NCBI RefSeq assembly: GCF_003862495.1
Contig: NZ_RRCH01000014.1
Location: forward strand, 62,001 to 126,000
Length of the DNA: 64,000 nt
Direction: 5' to 3'
Origin: Halocatena pleomorpha
GTDB lineage: Archaea > Halobacteriota > Halobacteria > Halobacteriales > Haloarculaceae
Below the pieces are notes generated by a model, which made no database searches, was not told the DNA's origin, and saw nothing but the letters and a program-made list of their open reading frames with translations. The translations under genes were made by a program, and so were the position numbers. Position 1 is the first letter of the stretch; each line of letters begins with the position of its first letter. Below are positions 3,871-22,080 of this stretch, one piece after another.

Positions 3871-4932
3871 CTATCTACAGTAGTAGATACCGCTGTGGGG
3901 CATCGAACTTTGAGTGCTTGGAACACCGTTGCAAGCAACGACGGGCCAATCGTTGCTGTCCCACCGAATCCGATCGACCATCAGTATGCGACCCTCCCGG
4001 CTCTCGGTCGCCTCGACGTGGTACACCATCCACCAGTCACCGTCGTCGTCCTGAATCGCTGTATTGTGACCCGGTCCGATGAACTGGTTGGTTCCTGATA
4101 AGACTGCTACGCCGCTGTGATGTTCGTTTAACTCGCGGAGATCCGTCCCGTTCTGGTTGTAATACGGGCCGAAAAACGATTCAGACCGTCCGACTTCGAC
4201 TCCGTATGTGCTGTCGTATCCCTGACAGCAGTGTCCCGTCGAGTAGAACAGATAGTAATAGCCGTTTTCCGCAAGGATCATGCCACCTTCGCGCCGATCG
4301 CCCGCCAGCTGGAACGTCGTTCCCGGCACGTACTCTCGACCGTCTTCGGTCAACTCGACACCGTAAATACCGTACCAACTGCCCCATATCAGGTAGGGAG
4401 TTCCGTCGATGACGTTGAAATCCGCGTCGATGCAGTTGGTTGGGCCAAGATCATTCTCTCGAAACACCGGTCCCTGATCGGTAAACGGGCCATCCGGCGT
4501 GTCCGATGTTGCGAGTCCGATACCAGGATTGTTGGTGCTTCCCCATTCCGAGTAGGAGTAGTAAATACGATACTCGCCGTCGTAATAGGAGATGTCCGGT
4601 GCCCACACGCCTGCGTCGTCGTTTCGCCAGTCAGGTTGACTCTGCAAGGCTGCACCGATGTACGTCCAGTTCACCAAGTCTGATGATCTGGCGATCGGAA
4701 TCACGTCTTCTGACGTTTCGGTACCGTACACGTAGTAGGTTCCGTCGGCAGTACGTACGACGGTCGCGTCACCAAATCCGAACGGTCCCGTCGGATTGTG
4801 ATAGTGGTTCGGATTCGGATCCCCGGCCGCCAACCCACTCGTCCGTATCCCAGCAGCGCCAAGCGCACTCCCACCGATTGTTTGCAATACACTTCGTCTA
4901 CTTACCGTATTACACCCTCTCCATTCCGCCAT
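3871..4932 (-). CDS. Exported glycoside hydrolase family 43 protein (arabinanase-like)
   Basis: Predicted secreted five-bladed beta-propeller hydrolase acting on arabinan or arabinoxylan side chains. A Tat signal (SRRSVLQTIGGSALGAAG) is followed by the GH43 fold. Numbering from ATG 4932: catalytic base in GFGDATVV (about D55), WAPDISYYDG (about D113), the transition-state residue region NCIDADF, and a general acid candidate in RREGGM (about E215). The GPGHNTAIQDDDGDWWMVYH block is typical of endo-arabinanase-type GH43 proteins. ATG 4932 is chosen over GTG 4947 because a TTTTTATAAC box (4957-4966) lies about 28 nt ahead, fitting a leaderless mRNA. It is followed on the same strand order by a second GH43 upstream at 5038-6603. 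Exact substrate is inferred. Confidence 0.88.
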   Translation of the reverse strand: MAEWRGCNTVSRRSVLQTIGGSALGAAGIRTSGLAAGDPNPNHYHNPTGPFGFGDATVVRTADGTYYVYGTETSEDVIPIARSSDLVNWTYIGAALQSQPDWRNDDAGVWAPDISYYDGEYRIYYSYSEWGSTNNPGIGLATSDTPDGPFTDQGPVFRENDLGPTNCIDADFNVIDGTPYLIWGSWYGIYGVELTEDGREYVPGTTFQLAGDRREGGMILAENGYYYLFYSTGHCCQGYDSTYGVEVGRSESFFGPYYNQNGTDLRELNEHHSGVAVLSGTNQFIGPGHNTAIQDDDGDWWMVYHVEATESREGRILMVDRIRWDSNDWPVVACNGVPSTQSSMPHSGIYYCR

Positions 4933-5037
4933 AGATACGTACAACACATTATTAGTTATAAAAATTTCGTTTTGAATTATATTTGCTTTGGTTTGTATAT
5001 CACGAGCGAGCGCCGTGTCGATACCATCGCCCGGACG

Positions 5038-6603
5038 TCACCAGGGACGTCCGTCGTCGGTAGGTTGAACCGTCTCAACGAAATTGAGCGTCCACCGTTG
5101 GTTCGTGTCGGCTGTCCACGGCCACTGGATGACATCGTCTCCGTCTGCGGTTGAACTCTCGTTCACGTCGACGACATCGCCGCTGTTGATGTTCCTGATG
5201 CGGTGGGTGCCATCACCGTTGTCGATGATCTCCCACTTCTGCGAGCCACCGGTCCACCACGCGAACTGCTGGAGGCTCTCGCCGTCCGTTGTCGATCCGT
5301 CTGGAACGTCGAGCGCTCGGTTGCTGTTTTGGTTGATAATGCGATACTCGTCGCCACCGATGTATTCAATCCACCATCGCTGGCAGGAACACCCATTCGA
5401 GGACCACTGTCTGACGTTGTCGCCGTCCGCAGTTCCGGCGTCTGCCACCTCCAGAAGTTTGCCACTGTTGACGTTCTCTATCTCGTATATGCCATCAGCA
5501 ATGTCTCCCGAGTCGGTGGTGTTCGGTCGAACGGACTGGAGGCTCGGGGTCTTGTCGCCACCGATGATCGGCCAGCCGTCGGTCCACTCAACCCGATCGA
5601 TGAAGAGTTGTCGAGCCGGAACGCCATCAACGAACTCCTGATCGTCACGGTCGTAGGCGTGGTAGACGAACCAATCTGTACCGTTATCGTCGGTCGTGAT
5701 GTCGCCGTGAGCCGGCGCCGGGAATCGACCGTTAGCAGTAAGTTGCGCGATACCGGCATTGTGGCTGTTGTAGTTCATGAGATCCGTCCCAGACGGATCA
5801 GTGTACGGTCCAAAGAAGTCCGTCGATCGACCGACTTCGACCTCGTAGGTACTGCTGTAGCCATCACAGCAGGTCCCTGTGGAGACGAACATGTACCAAT
5901 AGTCACCGCGTTTGAAAACGGTTGTGCCTTCGTAGGCGTCGCCTGCGACCTGCTGAATCGTTCCCGCCTGCCAATCCTGAAGATCGGACGTGAGTTCCAT
6001 CACGTAGATTCCCTGAAAGCTCCCCCAAAACAGATACGGCGTTCCTTCGTGTTCGACGAAATAGCCGTCGATGGTCCCTCCGCCCGCGTGATCGTTGTCA
6101 CCGATGATCTGCCCGTGATCTGTGAACGGCCCGTCGGGCGTGTCCGATGTTGCGAGACCGATCCCGAACTCGCCGCTCTCCCACGGACGGGGCGAAAGTG
6201 AATAGAACATCACCCACTCGCCGTTGTAGTAGTGAATGTCCGGTGCCCAGATAGAACCGTACGTCCATCCTGGACGCGTATCGAACGCTTCAGTGACGTA
6301 GCGCCACTCGTGTAGATTGTCCGATTTGAGTATCGGTATCAGACGTTCTTGAGGGTCGTTACCCCCATCGTTTCGGTTCATATTCGTCCCGTACGCCCAC
6401 CATGTTCCGTTACCGTCCCGATGGATCGTCGGATCTGGGAAGTGAGGCCCGTACAGTTCGTTGTGATAATGCGTCGAGTCGTCAGTGGTTGCGGTAACCG
6501 AGCTCCTTGTACTGATGGCACTACCGACCCCAAGCGCCCCGCCACCGATGGCCTTCAGTACGGTCCGCCTGTTCACCGCCAAATCATTACAATATTCTCT
6601 CAC
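5038..6603 (-). CDS. Exported GH43 glycosidase with C-terminal ricin-type (CBM13) lectin domain
   Basis: Secreted hydrolase for arabinose/xylose-containing polysaccharide plus a carbohydrate-binding module. A Tat signal (NRRTVLKAIGGGALG) is followed by a GH43 domain (about 45-350): catalytic base in HFPDPTIHRDG (D57), WAPDIHYYNG, the TIDGYF region, and YEGTTVF containing the acid candidate. Residues about 365-508 form a beta-trefoil with three QxW-type repeats (QRWW, QKW, QRW) and repeated N-x-NSG-x-x-(V/L)-(D/E)-V units, as in ricin-B/CBM13. GTG 6603 is supported by an ATATTTATC box about 26 nt upstream. It is a distant paralogue of the neighbouring GH43, and its lectin module resembles the one on the second GH11 xylanase at 50-51 kb. 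Confidence 0.9.
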   Translation of the reverse strand: MREYCNDLAVNRRTVLKAIGGGALGVGSAISTRSSVTATTDDSTHYHNELYGPHFPDPTIHRDGNGTWWAYGTNMNRNDGGNDPQERLIPILKSDNLHEWRYVTEAFDTRPGWTYGSIWAPDIHYYNGEWVMFYSLSPRPWESGEFGIGLATSDTPDGPFTDHGQIIGDNDHAGGGTIDGYFVEHEGTPYLFWGSFQGIYVMELTSDLQDWQAGTIQQVAGDAYEGTTVFKRGDYWYMFVSTGTCCDGYSSTYEVEVGRSTDFFGPYTDPSGTDLMNYNSHNAGIAQLTANGRFPAPAHGDITTDDNGTDWFVYHAYDRDDQEFVDGVPARQLFIDRVEWTDGWPIIGGDKTPSLQSVRPNTTDSGDIADGIYEIENVNSGKLLEVADAGTADGDNVRQWSSNGCSCQRWWIEYIGGDEYRIINQNSNRALDVPDGSTTDGESLQQFAWWTGGSQKWEIIDNGDGTHRIRNINSGDVVDVNESSTADGDDVIQWPWTADTNQRWTLNFVETVQPTDDGRPW

Positions 6604-7148: not shown

Positions 7149-7883
7149 ATGAAGAAGGTCCTCGCTAGCATTGGTATCGGTAACGCCACCGTAGACACTG
7201 TTCTTCCCAGAGACACCGTTCGACCCGGAGAAACGGTCGAAGCGGACGTACACATCACTGGTGGAAACGCAGAACAGGATGTCGGGACGATTCGTTTCGA
7301 ACTGGAAACCCGTTACCGGACTGATGAGGGGTATCGAACGGTAGACATCGATCGGTTCACGCTCGCTGAAAGCCTCACGATCCGACCGGACCAGGAGGAA
7401 ACCCGGTCGGTCTCAATCGACGTCCCGTATTCGACCCCGGTTACACTCGGTGGTGTCGACGTGTGGATCGAAACGGAACTCGACATCGATTTCGCTGTCG
7501 ATCCGGAAGACAGGGATCATCTCGATGTCCGACCGACCCCTCGGCTCCAAACTGTCTTTGATGTGATAGATGATCTCGGATTTTCGCTCCACACGGCGGA
7601 CTGTGAAGCTGATCCGTACGGACACTACACTGATCACCGGTTTGTTCAGGAATTCGAGTTTCGAGCTACTGCTGGTCGGTTCCGCGACAGGCTCGACGAA
7701 CTCGAGATCATCGCTCAGCCCGGTCCACAGAAACTCGAACTGTTCGTTGAAATCGACCGTCGCGCCGGTCTGCTGAGTGAAATGGCTGACATCGATGAGC
7801 AAACCGAGCGAATGACGGTTCGTTCAACCGACGCTGCGGCGATCCGCGCCGATATCACTGCACTCATCGAGAAACACGCCTGA
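7149..7883 (+). CDS. Spo0M (SpoOM) family arrestin-like protein
   Basis: The 244-aa protein matches the Spo0M family, named for a Bacillus subtilis sporulation-control protein with an arrestin-like beta-sandwich fold. Visible signatures are the opening MKKVLASIGIGNATVDT, the VRPGETVEADVHITGGNAEQ strand pair, the paired strands with R/Y-rich edges, and the later GG-x-DVWIETELDIDFAVDPEDRD block. The C-terminal half carries SEMADIDE and a helical end. The family is common in haloarchaea, where no sporulation exists, so the role is unknown and possibly related to stress or cell-surface state. It stands alone, with ATG 7149. Confidence 0.88.
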   Translation: MKKVLASIGIGNATVDTVLPRDTVRPGETVEADVHITGGNAEQDVGTIRFELETRYRTDEGYRTVDIDRFTLAESLTIRPDQEETRSVSIDVPYSTPVTLGGVDVWIETELDIDFAVDPEDRDHLDVRPTPRLQTVFDVIDDLGFSLHTADCEADPYGHYTDHRFVQEFEFRATAGRFRDRLDELEIIAQPGPQKLELFVEIDRRAGLLSEMADIDEQTERMTVRSTDAAAIRADITALIEKHA

Positions 7884-11859: not shown

Positions 11860-12309
11860 TTACCGGTCGGGATCGGCTCCGTTTTTCTGTGGCTCGATGC
11901 CTCGGTTTTCGATCAGACGAACAGCGATGTCCCCCGGATGTATCCGTTCTAACGCCAGTTCGATAAACGCTTGGTCGATCTCGTATCGTTTGTCGTTCCG
12001 TACATTATAGTTGTGTTTGAGCTGTCCTTTGGCATCATGCATTAGATCTTCGTATCCATACACCTCCGATTGCTGTAAGAACATCGCGAACTGCTCCCGC
12101 TCCCAAGACAGCGGACGGCTGTCTGCGATCGTCTCGGACTCGTCTCGTGAGTCATTCTGTTCTACATCCACGGTTTGAGACGTGTCCATCGGACCGTCCG
12201 GTGATACGGAGGCATCCTTAGATTTATTCGATCGACCTTTCGGTGCTTTTGGCTGGTGTCCTGCGCTCGTCTCACCGTCTTCGTCTACGAATTCATCGAA
12301 GTCACTCAT
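11860..12309 (-). CDS. Small partner protein encoded with ParA (candidate centromere-binding protein)
   Basis: Protein of 149 aa that I do not recognise by family. Residues 1-75 are acidic, Ser/Asp-rich and likely disordered; residues about 76-140 look helical and include SWEREQFAMFLQQSEVYGYE and KRYEIDQAFIELALERI. Its ATG at 12309 overlaps the ParA stop by the 8-nt ATGAGTGA, so the two are translationally coupled. By analogy with archaeal and bacterial partition cassettes, where an ATPase gene is followed by a DNA-binding adaptor, it is a candidate ParB-like or adaptor protein for the repeat region at 13.36-13.85 kb. That role is inference from position only; no classical ParB/HTH motif is seen. 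Confidence 0.6.
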   Translation of the reverse strand: MSDFDEFVDEDGETSAGHQPKAPKGRSNKSKDASVSPDGPMDTSQTVDVEQNDSRDESETIADSRPLSWEREQFAMFLQQSEVYGYEDLMHDAKGQLKHNYNVRNDKRYEIDQAFIELALERIHPGDIAVRLIENRGIEPQKNGADPDR

Positions 12310-13231
12310 CGAGAACACCCTCGCGCTCAACAATGCGAGCTAGTTCGTCTAAGTGCTGAAGCGTTAGTTGATCGTTGTTGCTTGTCGAACGTTTCGTTTT
12401 GATGTACCTCCCGAATGGCATCTGCTTTTCTTCTAATGCGTTTTCGAGATTCGAGTTTTTTCGTAATCCTGGCTTTGGAACCTCAATATCACCCCTATCG
12501 ATCGCCTCCCATTCCTCTGCTGGAATTCGTGCGAATGAGGGGAGATATTTTGAAAACTTGTCTGACCGGTTCAGACTCTCAAGGAGTCGTCGATCGGCTT
12601 TATCGTGTTTGATATACTCACTTATCATGTTCGGAACGATTGCGAGTATTTGGAAGTTGAGTTCGTCTGGCATCTCATTGATCACGCGTTTGTACGTTCG
12701 TTTGAACCCCGATCGATTCATGTCTCCCGGAGGGATGGGTATGATTGTCCTCGCAGCTGCCCCGTATGCAGCCCTAGCAATGTGGCTCCACTCACCGCCG
12801 CCATCCATGATGATGTAGTCGTAAGTGCCCTCTTCGAGCAGTGGCTGGATGAAGTTCTTCTTGAGAAGTGTAATACTGTTATCGCTAAGCTCGCTTTCGA
12901 GGGTGCTGAGCTTGACTGAGGCAGGAACGAAATCCCACTCCCAGTCTGTGGGATAGATATACTCTTCAAATCCTCCGTATTCGTGAATAACGATGTTCGT
13001 GAGATCATGCGTCGGATCTCCGAAAACGTCTGCGTATCCAAGGCTCTCAGTTATATGGCCGTTCGGATCAAGGTCCATGAAGAGGACGTCGTGCTCCCGG
13101 ACGGATAATCGATCTACGATATTGAGTGCCAGCAGCGATTTCCCGACGCCTCCTTTTAGCATGTTTACGCTGACTGCCTGACCAGTGATCGGTTCAATCT
13201 CTCCTTTGACTTCGTACGGTTTTGATGTCAT
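12302..13231 (-). CDS. ParA/Soj-family partition ATPase
   Basis: P-loop ATPase of the ParA/MinD superfamily, 309 aa, that normally drives segregation of plasmids or secondary chromosomes on nucleoid DNA. The deviant Walker A is MLKGGVGKSLLALN (about 24-37), followed by the A-prime motif LFMDLDPNGHITESLGY and Walker B YDYIIMDGGGEWS. The protein has no N-terminal HTH, so it belongs to the small, Soj-like type. A perfect palindrome 14 nt before the start (13245-13259) could mediate autoregulation, and the repeat-rich 13.36-13.85 kb region lies just upstream. It heads a two-gene operon with the small partner protein. Confidence 0.9.
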   Translation of the reverse strand: MTSKPYEVKGEIEPITGQAVSVNMLKGGVGKSLLALNIVDRLSVREHDVLFMDLDPNGHITESLGYADVFGDPTHDLTNIVIHEYGGFEEYIYPTDWEWDFVPASVKLSTLESELSDNSITLLKKNFIQPLLEEGTYDYIIMDGGGEWSHIARAAYGAAARTIIPIPPGDMNRSGFKRTYKRVINEMPDELNFQILAIVPNMISEYIKHDKADRRLLESLNRSDKFSKYLPSFARIPAEEWEAIDRGDIEVPKPGLRKNSNLENALEEKQMPFGRYIKTKRSTSNNDQLTLQHLDELARIVEREGVLDE

Positions 13232-13259: not shown

Positions 13260-13459
13260 TCTTCATAGTGGACAATTCTGAACGATTTGGCCCATATGAT
13301 GACGTATTATGGAGTTCAAAGATAAAGCTTTGTCAGACATAAGTCAGAGAAGTGAACATAGTTGGCTGACCAAGCGTATAATAATAGCTCCACCCTGTTA
13401 GCGACGTTAGCAAACTCTGCTTAGATAGCTAAGTGGACTTAGTTGGCTAACTTAGCAAA

Positions 13460-13486
13460 GTGTTCACTGCGGCAGTCGGTGAACAC
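13460..13486. repeat. Inverted repeat inside the iteron region
   Basis: GTGTTCAC (13460-13467), 11 nt, then GTGAACAC (13479-13486): perfect 8-bp arms of a sequence class different from the TTAGCTAA elements, suggesting a second protein-binding site. A related half-site AGTGAACA occurs at 13351. Confidence 0.45.
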
Positions 13487-13720
13487 CACTCCGTCACAGG
13501 TTTGGCGTGGTACCTCAAGCGATCAACACGGATCTAAGTCTGTTAACAGCAGACCGACACCAAACTATGCAGAGTTAGCTGACTCAGTAAACTTAGCTCA
13601 CAAATGTATGTTCGGTACCGTACCGGACTGACCATAGTGAATTCGGAGTCTCACGCGTCGAAGGTGCTCAGCAAGCGCTTCGTGCGATCCGATAGAAGCT
13701 TTCGTCTTCTATAAACTTAG

Positions 13721-13742
13721 TTAGCTAAGCTAGCTTAGCTAA
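13721..13742. repeat. Perfect 22-bp palindrome in the iteron region
   Basis: The 22 bases 13721-13742 equal their own reverse complement; they are two TTAGCTAA-type units meeting at a central AAGCTAGCTT. Flanks (CTTAG before, GTTAGC after) continue the repeat, making this the strongest site of the array. Confidence 0.6.
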
Positions 13743-14038
13743 GTTAGCAATCTAAGTAAACTCCGGCTAGTTGGCTATTCTTGCTAACAGAGCTAAGCAA
13801 ACCATGTATGTTGAGATAGTGGGCCATGCTTAGTTAGCTCATTTGGCTTATTTTTGGTTCAAACTCTATCGTTTTCGGCAACGGCAAACAGCTCATCGCT
13901 CAATACGAAGTCGTACAGTAGGGTTTCGACAATTGAGATCTCATTCCAGTTTTTTCCAACCACATACCGAGTGTTGTTTACAACATACTCAACTATTGTC
14001 CGGAATATTAATATAGGAAGGAAAAATACAACATTAAT

Positions 14039-14638
14039 ATGCGACACACATCGTATGTTAGTCCGACCCGACGAGACGTTCTCAAGCGCATTGGAGCAAT
14101 TGGCGGGGCTGGTCTCAGTGGAGTGACGCTAGCGAGCGGCACCGCTGTGGCGAAGCCGACCGTCGACTGGGAGCCAGCCGATTCGAGCAACTTTACCGGC
14201 GGAAACAGAGGGGCAGACGACATCAACTGGATCATCGTCCACGTGGTTCAGGGTTTAGCCAGTAGCGCGGTTAACTGGTTCCAGAACCCTGACGCAAACG
14301 TCAGTGCTCACTACACTGTCGCCAAGAATGGTCATCGCTATCAAAGCGTTAGCGATATGAACATAGCATGGCACGCGGGGAATTGGGATTACAACCAGCA
14401 GTCGATCGGCATTGAACACGGAGGGTATGTCAGTGAGAGCTTCACAGCCGATCAGTATCAAAGTTCTGCTGCACTGACCAGTTGGCTCTGTGAGCAGTAC
14501 AACGTTCCGAAGCAACATCCAGCGGATCCAGCCACTGCTGGTGTTATCGGTCATGCACAAGTGCCCGGTAGTACCCATACTGATCCCGGGGCCAATTGGA
14601 ACTGGGGACACTACATGGATCTCGTTAGGTCTAGGTAA
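14039..14638 (+). CDS. Exported N-acetylmuramoyl-L-alanine amidase (Amidase_2 family)
   Basis: Zinc amidase that in bacteria and phages cuts the bond between muramic acid and the stem peptide of peptidoglycan. A Tat signal (SPTRRDVLKRIGAIGGAG, residues 8-25) is followed by an Amidase_2/AmpD-like domain of about 150 aa. Zinc ligands can be placed at H68 (WIIVHVVQG), H172 (GHAQVPG) and D182 (HTDPG), and the catalytic acid at E126 (SIGIEHGG). Archaea have no peptidoglycan, so the substrate must be foreign: lysis of competing bacteria or nutrient scavenging is inferred. TTAATATA near 14009 precedes ATG 14039 by about 25-30 nt. The next gene encodes a GH73 glucosaminidase, cutting the glycan strand instead. 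It directly abuts the parA repeat region. Confidence 0.9.
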   Translation: MRHTSYVSPTRRDVLKRIGAIGGAGLSGVTLASGTAVAKPTVDWEPADSSNFTGGNRGADDINWIIVHVVQGLASSAVNWFQNPDANVSAHYTVAKNGHRYQSVSDMNIAWHAGNWDYNQQSIGIEHGGYVSESFTADQYQSSAALTSWLCEQYNVPKQHPADPATAGVIGHAQVPGSTHTDPGANWNWGHYMDLVRSR

Positions 14639-14719
14639 CGATACGATCTTGCGGGCAGATACGCGTATGATAAAAAATTGGACTGGACGCAAGCGTGTGA
14701 GAATGGAACTCAAGTGTTC

Positions 14720-15283
14720 ATGACTAGTAATCTTACCCGACGGTCGGTGCTGAAAGCACTGGGCAGTACGAGTATTCTTATGGCTGGTAGCGTATCGTTT
14801 TCGTCTCGTCCCGCTGCTGCGTACACCATTGATAGCGATCTCAGGCGACCCGCTGATGTCACCGGAAGGCAGCTCAATGCGGCGGTTGGCGCGATGTCAC
14901 CGGGAAGTCCGTTGGTCGGTCTCGGAGACCCGTGGGTCGACGTCCAGGCCACCCGGAATATCAATGCGGTGTATATGGCTGCCCATGCAGCACTCGAATC
15001 AGCGTGGGGACGGAGCGATATTGCACAAGAGAAAAACAACATCTACGGATTTGACGCACGAGACATCTGTCCAGCTGAGTGCGCTGATGAGTACGACTCG
15101 TTCGAACAGTGTGTCCGGGAGGTGATGGAATACATCGATCGAGAGTATCTCACACCAGGAGGGACCTACTACGAAGGAGCCACGTTGCGCGGCATGAATG
15201 TCCACTACGCGACTGATCCACAGTGGGCAGAAAAGATCGCTGGCATCATGGACGATCTCGAAACCAACCTTCCGGACGGATAG
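14720..15283 (+). CDS. Exported GH73-like glucosaminidase (peptidoglycan hydrolase)
   Basis: Predicted endo-beta-N-acetylglucosaminidase of the FlgJ/LytG/Bax group, which hydrolyses the sugar backbone of peptidoglycan. From ATG 14720 a Tat signal (TRRSVLKALGSTSILMAG) is followed by the lysozyme-like domain with the catalytic Glu in AAHAALESAWGRSDIAQ (E93), then KNNIYGFDARD, a segment with a Cys pair (DICPAEC, residues 116-121), SFEQCVREVMEYI and TLRGMNVHYATDPQWAEKI, all typical of the family. Length is 187 aa. An in-frame start at 14678 would put 14 extra residues before the signal and is less likely. It lies 81 nt after the amidase on the same strand; the two would act together on one polymer. 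Function against bacteria is inferred. Confidence 0.87.
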   Translation: MTSNLTRRSVLKALGSTSILMAGSVSFSSRPAAAYTIDSDLRRPADVTGRQLNAAVGAMSPGSPLVGLGDPWVDVQATRNINAVYMAAHAALESAWGRSDIAQEKNNIYGFDARDICPAECADEYDSFEQCVREVMEYIDREYLTPGGTYYEGATLRGMNVHYATDPQWAEKIAGIMDDLETNLPDG

Positions 15284-15471: not shown

Positions 15472-16932
15472 ATGACAGACAACAACTCCCATTCGACTTC
15501 CGAGTCGGACGGACGACAGGACAACATATCAATCGACCGCCGTGGATATCTGCAAACACTTGGAGCACTGGGCGTGCTTGGTGTCGGAACGACAGTAGCA
15601 GGCACCCCAACCGCCGCCGCGCAGGTGTCATCTGAACTACTTAACTACGATGGGCGCTCCGATGGTGCAGAATGGCGCGAGACCGCTCAAAAGCGCATCG
15701 AGGAAATTCGCAAGACAGACATCGAAGTCGAAGTGATCGGTCCCGGTGGTCAGCCAATGGACGAGGCCACAGTCGATATCGAGATGGCCGAGCACGAGTT
15801 CGACTTCGGCAGTGCTGTTTCGGTCAGCCACATCACCGGTGACGGCGAGGATGACGCGATCTATCGGGAGACGTTCCGTGAGAACTTCAACAAAGCCGTC
15901 ATCGAGAATGGGTTGAAGTATCCGTCATTCCTTGGACCGTGGGGCGACAGCAAAGCGGAAGCCAAGGCAACACTCGATTGGCTCAATGAGCATGATGTCC
16001 CCTCACGCGGACACTACCTAGTGTGGGAAGGATTCGACACCGCATCCGGTGGCGGTATGTCGATCGACGAGTCGGACTCCCGGTCGCCGGAGGAACTCCA
16101 ACAACTGATTGTTGATCGGATTCAGAATCACGCGTTGGATGTCGGAGACCGAGTAACAGAGTGGGACATGCATAATCATCCCATCTGGCAGAGCAACTTC
16201 CGTGACAGGGACGGACTCGGCTGGGATGCCGTCCTCGGGTGGTGGAACGCAGGGGAGCAGGCTACTGACGCCGATCTATACACCAATGAGATGGGGAATG
16301 TTGCTGGGGATTTCTTCCGGCAACAGCACTACGACTTTGTTAAACGACTCCTTGCGGATGGCGCCTCTGTCGATGGGGTCGGCTTCATGGGACACGTTCA
16401 GTTACCCAACGGTAACGTAACACCACCCAAAGAGATGCTTTCGACGTTCGATCAGTTCGCTAAGCTCGACCTGCCGGTCCTAATCACCGAGTTTGATGTC
16501 CAGATCGAACGTCGCAATGATGAGAAACAGGTAGACTGGCAGGTAGACTTCGTTCGAGACTTCCTAACGGCGGCGTTTAGTCACGAGGCCGTTGAAGGCG
16601 TCATGTCGTGGGGCTTTTGGGCCGGAGATCATTGGCGGCCAACGGGGGCGTACTATAATGAGGATTGGACCCTACGGCCACACGGTGAGAAGTATATGGA
16701 CCTCGTCTTCGATGAGTGGTGGACAGACGAGAATGGCAAGACCGACGATAACGGCCGCTACACCACGCGCGGATTCAAAGGAAGTTACAAGGTAACCGCA
16801 AAGAAGGGCTCCCTGTCGGGGGAGGATACTGTAACGTTTGATGATACAACTGAGACGGTGCGTGTCGAACTTGTTCCCCCCGGAAGGAACGATTCGAACG
16901 CATCCCCGAGCAAAAACTCAGAGGAGGAATAA
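15472..16932 (+). CDS. Exported GH10-like protein (xylanase fold, acid/base residue replaced)
   Basis: Tat-exported protein (DRRGYLQTLGALGVLGVG) of 486 aa with the GH10 endo-1,4-beta-xylanase architecture. A short beta-rich N-terminal part (about 55-110, VEVIGPGGQPMDEATVDIEM) precedes the TIM barrel, which contains KYPSFLGPWG, RGHYLVWE, TEWDMHNHP, VGFMGHVQ, LPVLITEFDVQ and GVMSWGFWAGDHW. The nucleophile is present (E340 in ITEFD). At the acid/base site, where GH10 enzymes have WDxxNE, this protein has WDMHNH, i.e. His236 in place of Glu. It may be a divergent GH10 with another proton donor, or a non-hydrolytic binder. The C-terminus (about 430-475) is a small beta domain. ACATTTATATAC at 15426-15437 is the likely promoter. 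Confidence 0.85.
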   Translation: MTDNNSHSTSESDGRQDNISIDRRGYLQTLGALGVLGVGTTVAGTPTAAAQVSSELLNYDGRSDGAEWRETAQKRIEEIRKTDIEVEVIGPGGQPMDEATVDIEMAEHEFDFGSAVSVSHITGDGEDDAIYRETFRENFNKAVIENGLKYPSFLGPWGDSKAEAKATLDWLNEHDVPSRGHYLVWEGFDTASGGGMSIDESDSRSPEELQQLIVDRIQNHALDVGDRVTEWDMHNHPIWQSNFRDRDGLGWDAVLGWWNAGEQATDADLYTNEMGNVAGDFFRQQHYDFVKRLLADGASVDGVGFMGHVQLPNGNVTPPKEMLSTFDQFAKLDLPVLITEFDVQIERRNDEKQVDWQVDFVRDFLTAAFSHEAVEGVMSWGFWAGDHWRPTGAYYNEDWTLRPHGEKYMDLVFDEWWTDENGKTDDNGRYTTRGFKGSYKVTAKKGSLSGEDTVTFDDTTETVRVELVPPGRNDSNASPSKNSEEE

Positions 16933-20714: not shown

Positions 20715-20919
20715 CAACTTTATACTACCTGCGCATCGGCTTTTTCGATCAATCGAATTACGTATTATTTTCCTCGTCGAATGAACCTAGACCAGGTTCG
20801 AACAAATCTGCGTGACATCGGTCGCCGTACAACGAGCGTCACAGATCGGTTGTTATGGTATTTGACTGTTTTTACAATATATGGTTACTATCCGGAACTA
20901 TTATGTATTTTCAGACTTC

Positions 20920-22080
20920 ATGACTCATATGGATGACTCGAAACGGGAGTTCGGCAGTGGGATCAGTCGTCGAGAACTGCTTGCTCTTGCAGGCATCTCC
21001 GGAGTGACAGCATTAACGGGGTGCGCGAGCGCAGAAACGACCGCTACGAATCCTTCTGTGGGAAGTCCATCACCGTTGCCAGTCCCAGAAACAGGGGATA
21101 TTCCCCAGCCATCTGGTCCGCCAGGGAACCTCACTGTGCTCGATTGGGCCGGATTTGACAGTGCCGTTTCGTACACCTTTGATGACGGACAGCCATCGCA
21201 ACTCGAACATTATAACGAATTACGGAAGACGGGTATCAATTCAACCTTTTACATCTCAATCAACGTTGATTTCTCTGGCTACGAAGAGGGATGGCAACAG
21301 GTCGCTGCAGACGGCCACGAAATCGGAAATCACACGGTGAGCCATCCTTACGCCGATCTTACCGGGAGCAGTTTCGGAGAACCGCTAAACAGCACTGCAG
21401 CAGAAATCAAACAGTGCACGGAATATATCACCCAAACGTTCGAGCAGCAGGACGTGTGGACCATGGCAGCCCCCTTCGGTGATACCGGGTGGATCGAACC
21501 GGCCAAGCAGGCCGATGTTTTCTTGAATCGTGGTGTTGGTGGAGGAACGATCGCGCCGAACGATTCCACGAATCCCTTCGACTTACCGTGTTATACCGCA
21601 AGCGACGGCGACACAGCAGAGACGTTTGACGATTTGGCCGATTCGAGCCATTCGAATGGGGAGTGGCTCATTTACCTGTTCCACTCGATCGCGCCCACCG
21701 ACGCGGAGTGGTACGCACCTGTGGGCATATCTGAAATCACTGAAAATATAAACCATGTGAAATCACTCGATAATGTCTGGATCGACACGGTTGCTACGAT
21801 CGGTGCTTACTGGCTTGGGCAAAAGATACTCGATTCGACCACACCTACGAGAGCAGGAAGCGACAAAGTTTGGACGTGGACATTGCCGGACGGCTTTCCG
21901 CAGGGTCAATATCTCCGGGTCAAAACGGACGGCGGAATTCTCAAGCAGGAGGGTGAGGCTTTAGAGTGGGACCCACATGGCTACTATGAAATTTCATTGG
22001 ATGCAGGCCGTTTGACACTTTCGCCATCGTCCGCCGGTCCTCCTCGACGCTGCAACAGGCGGTACGATCACGACCGCTAA
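20920..22080 (+). CDS. Exported lipoprotein polysaccharide deacetylase (CE4/NodB)
   Basis: Metal-dependent deacetylase acting outside the cell on acetylated polysaccharide (xylan, chitin-type or other). The N-terminus combines a Tat motif (SRRELLALAGISG) with a lipobox (ALTGCAS), so it should be a Tat-exported, lipid-anchored protein. The CE4 motifs are VSYTFDDGQPS (two Asp, first the base, second a metal ligand) and HEIGNHTVSHP (the H-xxx-H metal ligands), then AAPFGDTGW (motif 3) and LIYLFHSI (motif with the general acid His). The region after about residue 300 is a small beta domain. The last about 25 residues are Arg/Pro-rich, possibly an altered terminus. Acetyl-xylan substrates fit the GH10/GH11/GH43 genes in the window, but that is inference. 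Confidence 0.85.
   Translation: MTHMDDSKREFGSGISRRELLALAGISGVTALTGCASAETTATNPSVGSPSPLPVPETGDIPQPSGPPGNLTVLDWAGFDSAVSYTFDDGQPSQLEHYNELRKTGINSTFYISINVDFSGYEEGWQQVAADGHEIGNHTVSHPYADLTGSSFGEPLNSTAAEIKQCTEYITQTFEQQDVWTMAAPFGDTGWIEPAKQADVFLNRGVGGGTIAPNDSTNPFDLPCYTASDGDTAETFDDLADSSHSNGEWLIYLFHSIAPTDAEWYAPVGISEITENINHVKSLDNVWIDTVATIGAYWLGQKILDSTTPTRAGSDKVWTWTLPDGFPQGQYLRVKTDGGILKQEGEALEWDPHGYYEISLDAGRLTLSPSSAGPPRRCNRRYDHDR

Follow-up and report, generated by a model that had tools for sequence, protein, structure and literature searches.

What would an archaeon, with no peptidoglycan of its own, gain from exporting two enzymes of families that cut peptidoglycan? The question is raised by two adjacent genes within 64,000 nucleotides of Halocatena pleomorpha (assembly GCF_003862495.1, contig NZ_RRCH01000014.1, positions 62,001 to 126,000; G000:C6:62001-126000 in our numbering), a stretch referred to throughout as the window, with the Halocatena assembly itself being 3.65 Mb in 61 contigs and 96.6% complete. 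A sequence-only reading of the window had taken the pair, a zinc amidase and a glucosaminidase, for a candidate antibacterial system. The explanation now favoured, at a probability of roughly 0.8, is that of a secreted, complementary pair which would dismantle bacterial peptidoglycan outside the archaeal cell. The features concerned are as follows.

14039-14638, + strand: N-acetylmuramoyl-L-alanine amidase (Amidase_2, PF01510; the fold of AmpD, endolysins and PGRP), 199 amino acids, predicted to be exported by the twin-arginine translocation (Tat) pathway
14639-14719, + strand: intergenic gap between the two genes, 81 bp (87 bp in the haloarchaeon YIM A00010, with identical order and strand)
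14720-15283, + strand: endo-beta-N-acetylglucosaminidase of family GH73 (PF01832), 187 amino acids, predicted to be Tat-exported
14034-15280, + strand: DNA homology with contig 4 of YIM A00010, 77% over 1254 columns, covering both genes only, flanks excluded

The two genes are adjacent and on the same strand as was claimed, and in profile searches both products score well above the cut-offs of their families, the amidase with 110 bits against PF01510 (cut-off 26) and the GH73 enzyme with 73 bits against PF01832 (cut-off 30.2). The active-site residues that had been named are all at their positions, with H68, E126, H172 and D182 unchanged throughout an alignment of 20 haloarchaeal amidases and E93 of the GH73 enzyme (numbered from the ATG) invariant in the aligned sequences. 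Alignment to AmpD gives H68, H172 and D182 as the predicted zinc ligands and E126 as the predicted catalytic glutamate. The AlphaFold2 model of the amidase has a predicted local distance difference test score (pLDDT) mostly above 90 across the mature part and its top Foldseek match is AmpD (2y2c, E 1.4e-11), whilst the GH73 model has a pLDDT of 82 and finds pneumococcal LytB as its best structural match, and in this the sequence profile agrees. Family, residues and fold predict for the amidase a cut at the amide bond between N-acetylmuramic acid and L-alanine and for the GH73 enzyme a cut within the glycan strand, which supports the earlier view that two different bonds are attacked. The ATG at 14720 is most likely the true start of the GH73 gene, as the open frame from 14678 merely adds residues ahead of the Tat motif.

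Both proteins carry the Tat signals ascribed to them, TRRDVLK...AVA in the amidase and LTRRSVLK...AAA in the GH73 enzyme, judged from the motif and from one profile, the NCBI Tat model TIGR01409, which is above its cut-off for the amidase. Neither protein has a cysteine among its first 60 residues and hence neither has a lipobox, and both enzymes would be expected to leave by the Tat pathway as free proteins. No immunity gene was seen and, as had been pointed out, none would be needed because the archaeon itself lacks peptidoglycan. The homology with YIM A00010, a mycelium-forming haloarchaeon (Tang et al. 2023, PMC10067837), spans exactly both genes and neither flank, which marks the pair as a discrete unit of two genes. 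The amidase and GH73 proteins of that genome (G392) are 81% and 83% identical to those of the window, with a non-synonymous divergence (dN) of about 0.1 and a synonymous divergence (dS) of about 1, which is near saturation, and both genes evolve under purifying selection.

Whether such genes are simply scattered and unlinked was asked by counting linkage across 391 Halobacteria genomes, which are part of a larger class and in which the gene calls of the retrieved loci are mechanical. GH73 was found in 13 of these genomes (11 above cut-off), Amidase_2 in 50, SLT_2 in 9 and M23 in 113. The M23 peptidases were counted only at 85 bits or more (25 strong-type matches), with a weaker, longer haloarchaeal M23 family kept as a control, and SH3_3 was excluded from the statistics as its Pfam model catches only some haloarchaeal SH3 domains along with many other proteins. 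The GH73 gene of G366, on a probable contaminant contig, was included but is unlinked, leaving the result unaffected. When genes of different hydrolase families (amidase, GH73, M23 and SLT) are paired within genomes, 73 pairs result, and in 16 of them the two genes lie within 3 kb of one another, where uniform placement leads to an expectation of 0.115 and a maximum of 3 across 20,000 simulations; the genomes are non-independent, so the expected value is a safer guide than any p-value. The 16 linked pairs comprise five fusions and eleven pairs of neighbouring genes in 11 genomes and 8 genera, and none of the 28 control pairs with the weak, long M23 family is linked.

The linked genes take a variety of forms. 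Fused proteins of the order amidase-SH3(n)-GH73 occur in G046, G254 (Natronosalvus hydrolyticus) and G234, a fused GH73-SH3-SH3-M23 protein in G165, and SLT and M23 lie within one frame in G322. The genome G209 (L065:7326-10886) has four consecutive Tat genes encoding GH73-SH3, SH3-M23, SH3-amidase and an alpha/beta hydrolase (DUF900) with lipids or esters as possible substrates, and in G183 (L075:9199-11766) and G393 (L076:9266-11833) the same alpha/beta hydrolase is fused to SH3-SH3-amidase-SH3-SH3 in an 855-residue Tat protein. Within the genus itself, Halocatena marina DFN5 (G277) has a cluster of SLT-SH3, SH3-M23 and SH3-amidase, and a plasmid of Halocatena salina (G360, contig 2, NZ_CP096020) has SLT-SH3 and SH3-M23, in agreement with its RefSeq annotation. 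On contig 21 of the window's own genome there is another Tat cluster (L241:8588-10101), SLT-SH3 followed by SH3-M23, which together with the pair brings the organism to a predicted four exported hydrolases, each for a different kind of cut in peptidoglycan.

It is apparent that amidase, GH73, M23 and SLT domains, often accompanied by SH3 or PG_binding_1, recur together, in adjacent genes or in one chain, and make up a modular repertoire; no report of such haloarchaeal clusters was found in the open-access literature. The amidases joined to GH73 occupy four separate places in the amidase tree, a single clade holds the GH73 domains from the three amidase-GH73 fusions, and on these sequence trees the association has arisen independently at least three times. 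Because several unrelated haloarchaea have these two domains side by side or in one chain, the two enzymes of the window appear to be functionally linked, and the pair thus withstood the suspicion that its genes occur only scattered and unlinked.

The haloarchaeal GH73 domains form a single clade (support 99/96) nested among bacteria, its sister being a single actinobacterial bin, and this clade holds both the window enzyme and the GH73-PG_binding proteins, which have the architecture of Danwoldo, of Halogranum rubrum and Haladaptatus; the tree did not contain Danwoldo itself. The window enzyme scores 226.8 bits over its catalytic part only against NF052335, a profile that would, from its name and length, be modelled on Danwoldo, and this is under the equivalog cut-off of 500. 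For the amidase the nearest bacterial relatives among plasmid records are actinobacterial, at 44-50% identity (Streptomyces, Nonomuraea), but just three bacterial amidases were taken into the amidase tree, which leaves the donor unsettled. Two further archaeal GH73 genes were seen. A 716-residue protein with several SH3 domains in a Thermoplasmata metagenome-assembled genome (L120:4054-6204) groups with a viral contig and Bacillota and not with haloarchaea, indicating a separate acquisition, and the GH73 gene of G366 (contig 34; L070) sits on a contig of only 8.6 kb in a haloarchaeal bin of poor quality, is unlike the haloarchaeal clade and is probably contamination.

The sequence-only reading was right that some archaeal peptidoglycan hydrolases kill bacteria. 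Strock et al. 2025 (PMC12352652) reported that Danwoldo and Woldo kill a halophilic bacterium, which for Danwoldo, expressed in Haloferax volcanii, was Halalkalibacterium halodurans. Peptidoglycan is very probably the substrate of the pair, as it is the only one that the four repeatedly joined chemistries share and as this relative of the GH73 enzyme is a killer of bacteria. In that study Woldo and Danwoldo are presented as single proteins, and its survey takes in a protein only if it has a wall-binding domain as well as a catalytic one. The window proteins have one Pfam domain each and do not fall under this definition of a modular hydrolase, and bare pairs were thus outside the survey because the definition demands a wall-binding domain.

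Among the closest known systems, Danwoldo (HSB1_29560 type, NF052335) of Halogranum salarium B-1 is like the window GH73 enzyme in its haloarchaeal clade, its Tat signal and its free secretion, but has two PG_binding_1 domains and was reported as a lone gene, whereas the window enzyme is a catalytic domain alone beside an amidase. AmpD and other type 2 amidases, including the actinobacterial peptidoglycan recognition proteins, share the fold, zinc ligands and catalytic glutamate of the window amidase, which differs in its predicted Tat export from a cell without peptidoglycan and in its glucosaminidase partner. The LytB-type GH73 enzymes of Bacillota, pneumococcal LytB among them, are the nearest solved structures and share the catalytic glutamate motif, but the window enzyme would have no role as a self-autolysin and has no choline-binding or other wall-binding domain. 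The staphylococcal autolysin Atl may be seen as an analogue, with the same two chemistries, and the SH3-joined haloarchaeal fusions are likewise one chain. The bacterial recycling and catabolism loci (NagZ, NamZ, AnmK and amidase) have their counterpart around relatives of the pair in Halorussus, H. marina, YIM A00010 and G073, from which the pair of the window differs in having no such genes alongside.

Under the favoured explanation both enzymes would be released through Tat as free proteins, the amidase would cut between N-acetylmuramic acid and L-alanine whilst the GH73 enzyme cut the glycan strand, and the benefit would most likely come from opening bacteria or bacterial walls, for food, competition or both. 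Four observations tell against it. The mature amidase, with 9% aspartate plus glutamate, is not strongly acidic and so its activity at high salt is not to be presumed. Pfam searches find no wall-binding domain in either the amidase or the GH73 enzyme, each being a catalytic domain only, unlike Danwoldo. The amidase and GH73 genes are unlinked in some genomes (G277, G123 and G162). Finally, profile searches of the window's genome, at its 96.6% completeness, find neither AnmK nor NamZ.

The last of these bears on what the pair is for. One possibility is food, with the enzymes acting outside the cell at the start of a system by which the walls of living or dead bacteria would yield muropeptides, amino sugars and cell contents to the archaeon, and the chance that nutrition of this kind is the main benefit falls just short of even. 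The case comes from the relatives. Plasmids of Halorussus aquaticus (NZ_CP100402, L297:9287-32677), limi and vallis (L297-L299) share a conserved block with a Tat amidase inside it, which encodes AnmK (PF03702), NamZ (PF07075/PF20732), a GH3 enzyme annotated nagZ, a beta-lactamase-fold serine hydrolase, a HAD hydrolase, an epimerase-like enzyme of the enolase superfamily (MR/MLE), two GH18 enzymes, an IclR regulator and a complete ATP-binding cassette (ABC) transporter set with an SBP_bac_5 binding protein. The bare Halorussus amidases form one clade (support 99/98) with those of YIM A00010, G073 and the window, and the same catabolic genes flank the amidases of YIM A00010 and G073 as well as the GH73-SH3 protein of H. 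marina, a close relative (79%) of the window enzyme. With substrates assigned from family membership, these are apparently loci for the uptake and catabolism of peptidoglycan, of which no report in archaea (as NamZ/AnmK loci) was found in the open-access literature, and they suggest feeding on wall material in the group. A peptidoglycan uptake pathway is reported to be enriched among archaea whose genomes encode such enzymes (Strock et al., PMC12352652), which points the same way, as do the polymer-degrading genes that flank the pair. Contig 2 of YIM A00010 (L074; G392:C2:573357-575995) has in addition two further NamZ-like genes and an AnmK gene in the vicinity of another Tat amidase, this one unpaired, which looks like a further locus for peptidoglycan use in this mycelium-forming archaeon.

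Within the window's own genome this feeding version is weakened because the salvage genes were not found, with no AnmK, NamZ, NagZ or transporter beside the pair and, besides the missing AnmK and NamZ, only partial sub-threshold matches of SIS domains to MurQ, which is not found at full length in any genome of the genus. Recycling of its own peptidoglycan by the window's organism was rejected on the same grounds. The killing of living bacteria by Danwoldo also counts against food.

The other possibility, somewhat more doubtful, is the weapon that had first been proposed, a two-enzyme bacteriolysin whose main benefit would be the removal of competing halophilic bacteria. It is favoured by the killing seen with Danwoldo and Woldo, by the two different bonds attacked, by the patchy occurrence of the pair at different places in two genomes, by the existence of clusters with an added alpha/beta hydrolase and by the very lack of AnmK and NamZ that counts against food. 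It has no known target, the enzymes have no binding domain for targeting, and their close relatives sit in apparent catabolic loci. What holds from the antibacterial proposal is therefore that these are members of peptidoglycan hydrolase families, apparently active, exported and functionally linked; what does not carry over is a role that is specifically antibacterial. The odds that the pair kills living bacteria are about even, and feeding is at least as likely as an antibacterial role, slightly ahead of it in the group as a whole.

A bolder and more tentative proposal, which we would sooner doubt than accept, is that some haloarchaea partly live on bacteria, with multi-enzyme Tat sets opening the walls and a dedicated locus importing and digesting the fragments, so that the pair of the window would be the exported component of an organism which keeps its lytic sets but in which the known salvage genes were lost or were never present. 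If this were true then sets for eating bacteria would consist of amidase, glucosaminidase, endopeptidase, transglycosylase and perhaps a lipase-like hydrolase, and the uptake locus, borne on plasmid or chromosome, would consist of an ABC transporter, AnmK, NamZ, NagZ and others.

It is improbable that the enzymes remodel the surface of the archaeon itself, for example in hyphal or sporulating growth. The pair is carried by the mycelium-forming YIM A00010 (PMC10067837) and the GH73 enzyme weakly matches the sporangiospore hydrolase GsmA, but mycelium-forming archaea are described there as having an S-layer wall with peptidoglycan not mentioned, the four peptidoglycan-specific chemistries have no common substrate on such a surface, and the enzymes are patchy in genera without a reported hyphal or sporulating life cycle. 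That the genes are endolysins or tail lysins left by a virus is hardly credible and was rejected. PHROGs does give phage endolysin families for the two proteins, but the phage matches (at most about 46% for the GH73 enzyme and up to about 35% for the amidase) are far weaker than the haloarchaeal ones, and relatives on viral contigs are likewise weak. Moreover, each enzyme carries a Tat signal, there is no peptidoglycan for a haloarchaeal virus to cut, and viral genes were not seen beside the pair.

The favoured reading, dismantling of bacterial peptidoglycan by an exported pair, bears on two questions raised by Strock et al. (PMC12352652), who noted that guilt-by-association would need archaeal antibacterial genes to be clustered, 'which is by no means guaranteed', and who left open whether such enzymes serve killing or scavenging. 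Four families of exported wall hydrolase do cluster and fuse in haloarchaea, and this clustering extends to enzymes without wall-binding domains, which their survey left out by definition. What is new here is thus the bare, paired, exported archaeal hydrolases and the evidence on clustering and on killing as opposed to feeding. The named genes and genomes make both questions testable and offer a way towards further partners, such as the alpha/beta hydrolase, which occurs both in a cluster with the amidase and in one chain with it.

Two neighbours of the pair could be taken for further parts of the system.

15472-16932, + strand: Tat-exported GH10 protein (xylanase family; PF00331, 99.7 bits), the next gene downstream of the pair
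11860-13231, - strand: ParA ATPase (12302-13231; PF13614) with a 157-residue partner (11860-12333)

The GH10 gene, which the sequence-only reading had not mentioned, was considered as a third member and rejected, as there is no GH10 next to the pair in YIM A00010. The position beside a partition locus had been regarded as a distinctive part of the arrangement, but the copy of the pair in YIM A00010 has no ParA alongside and the partition locus was rejected as part of the system. Beside ParA lies an AT-rich intergenic stretch (13357-13850) with many direct and inverted repeats of the TTAGC/GCTAA type, of which 16 of the window's 48 fall inside 1 kb, and this stretch resembles the centromere or iteron region of a replicon. 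More widely the surroundings of the pair are those of polysaccharide degradation (3871-6603, 15472-16932 and 20881-22080), with two GH43 proteins, one of which carries a ricin-type lectin domain, the Tat GH10 and a polysaccharide deacetylase. At 7149-7883 there is also a protein of the Spo0M family (PF07070, 231 bits), here in an archaeon.
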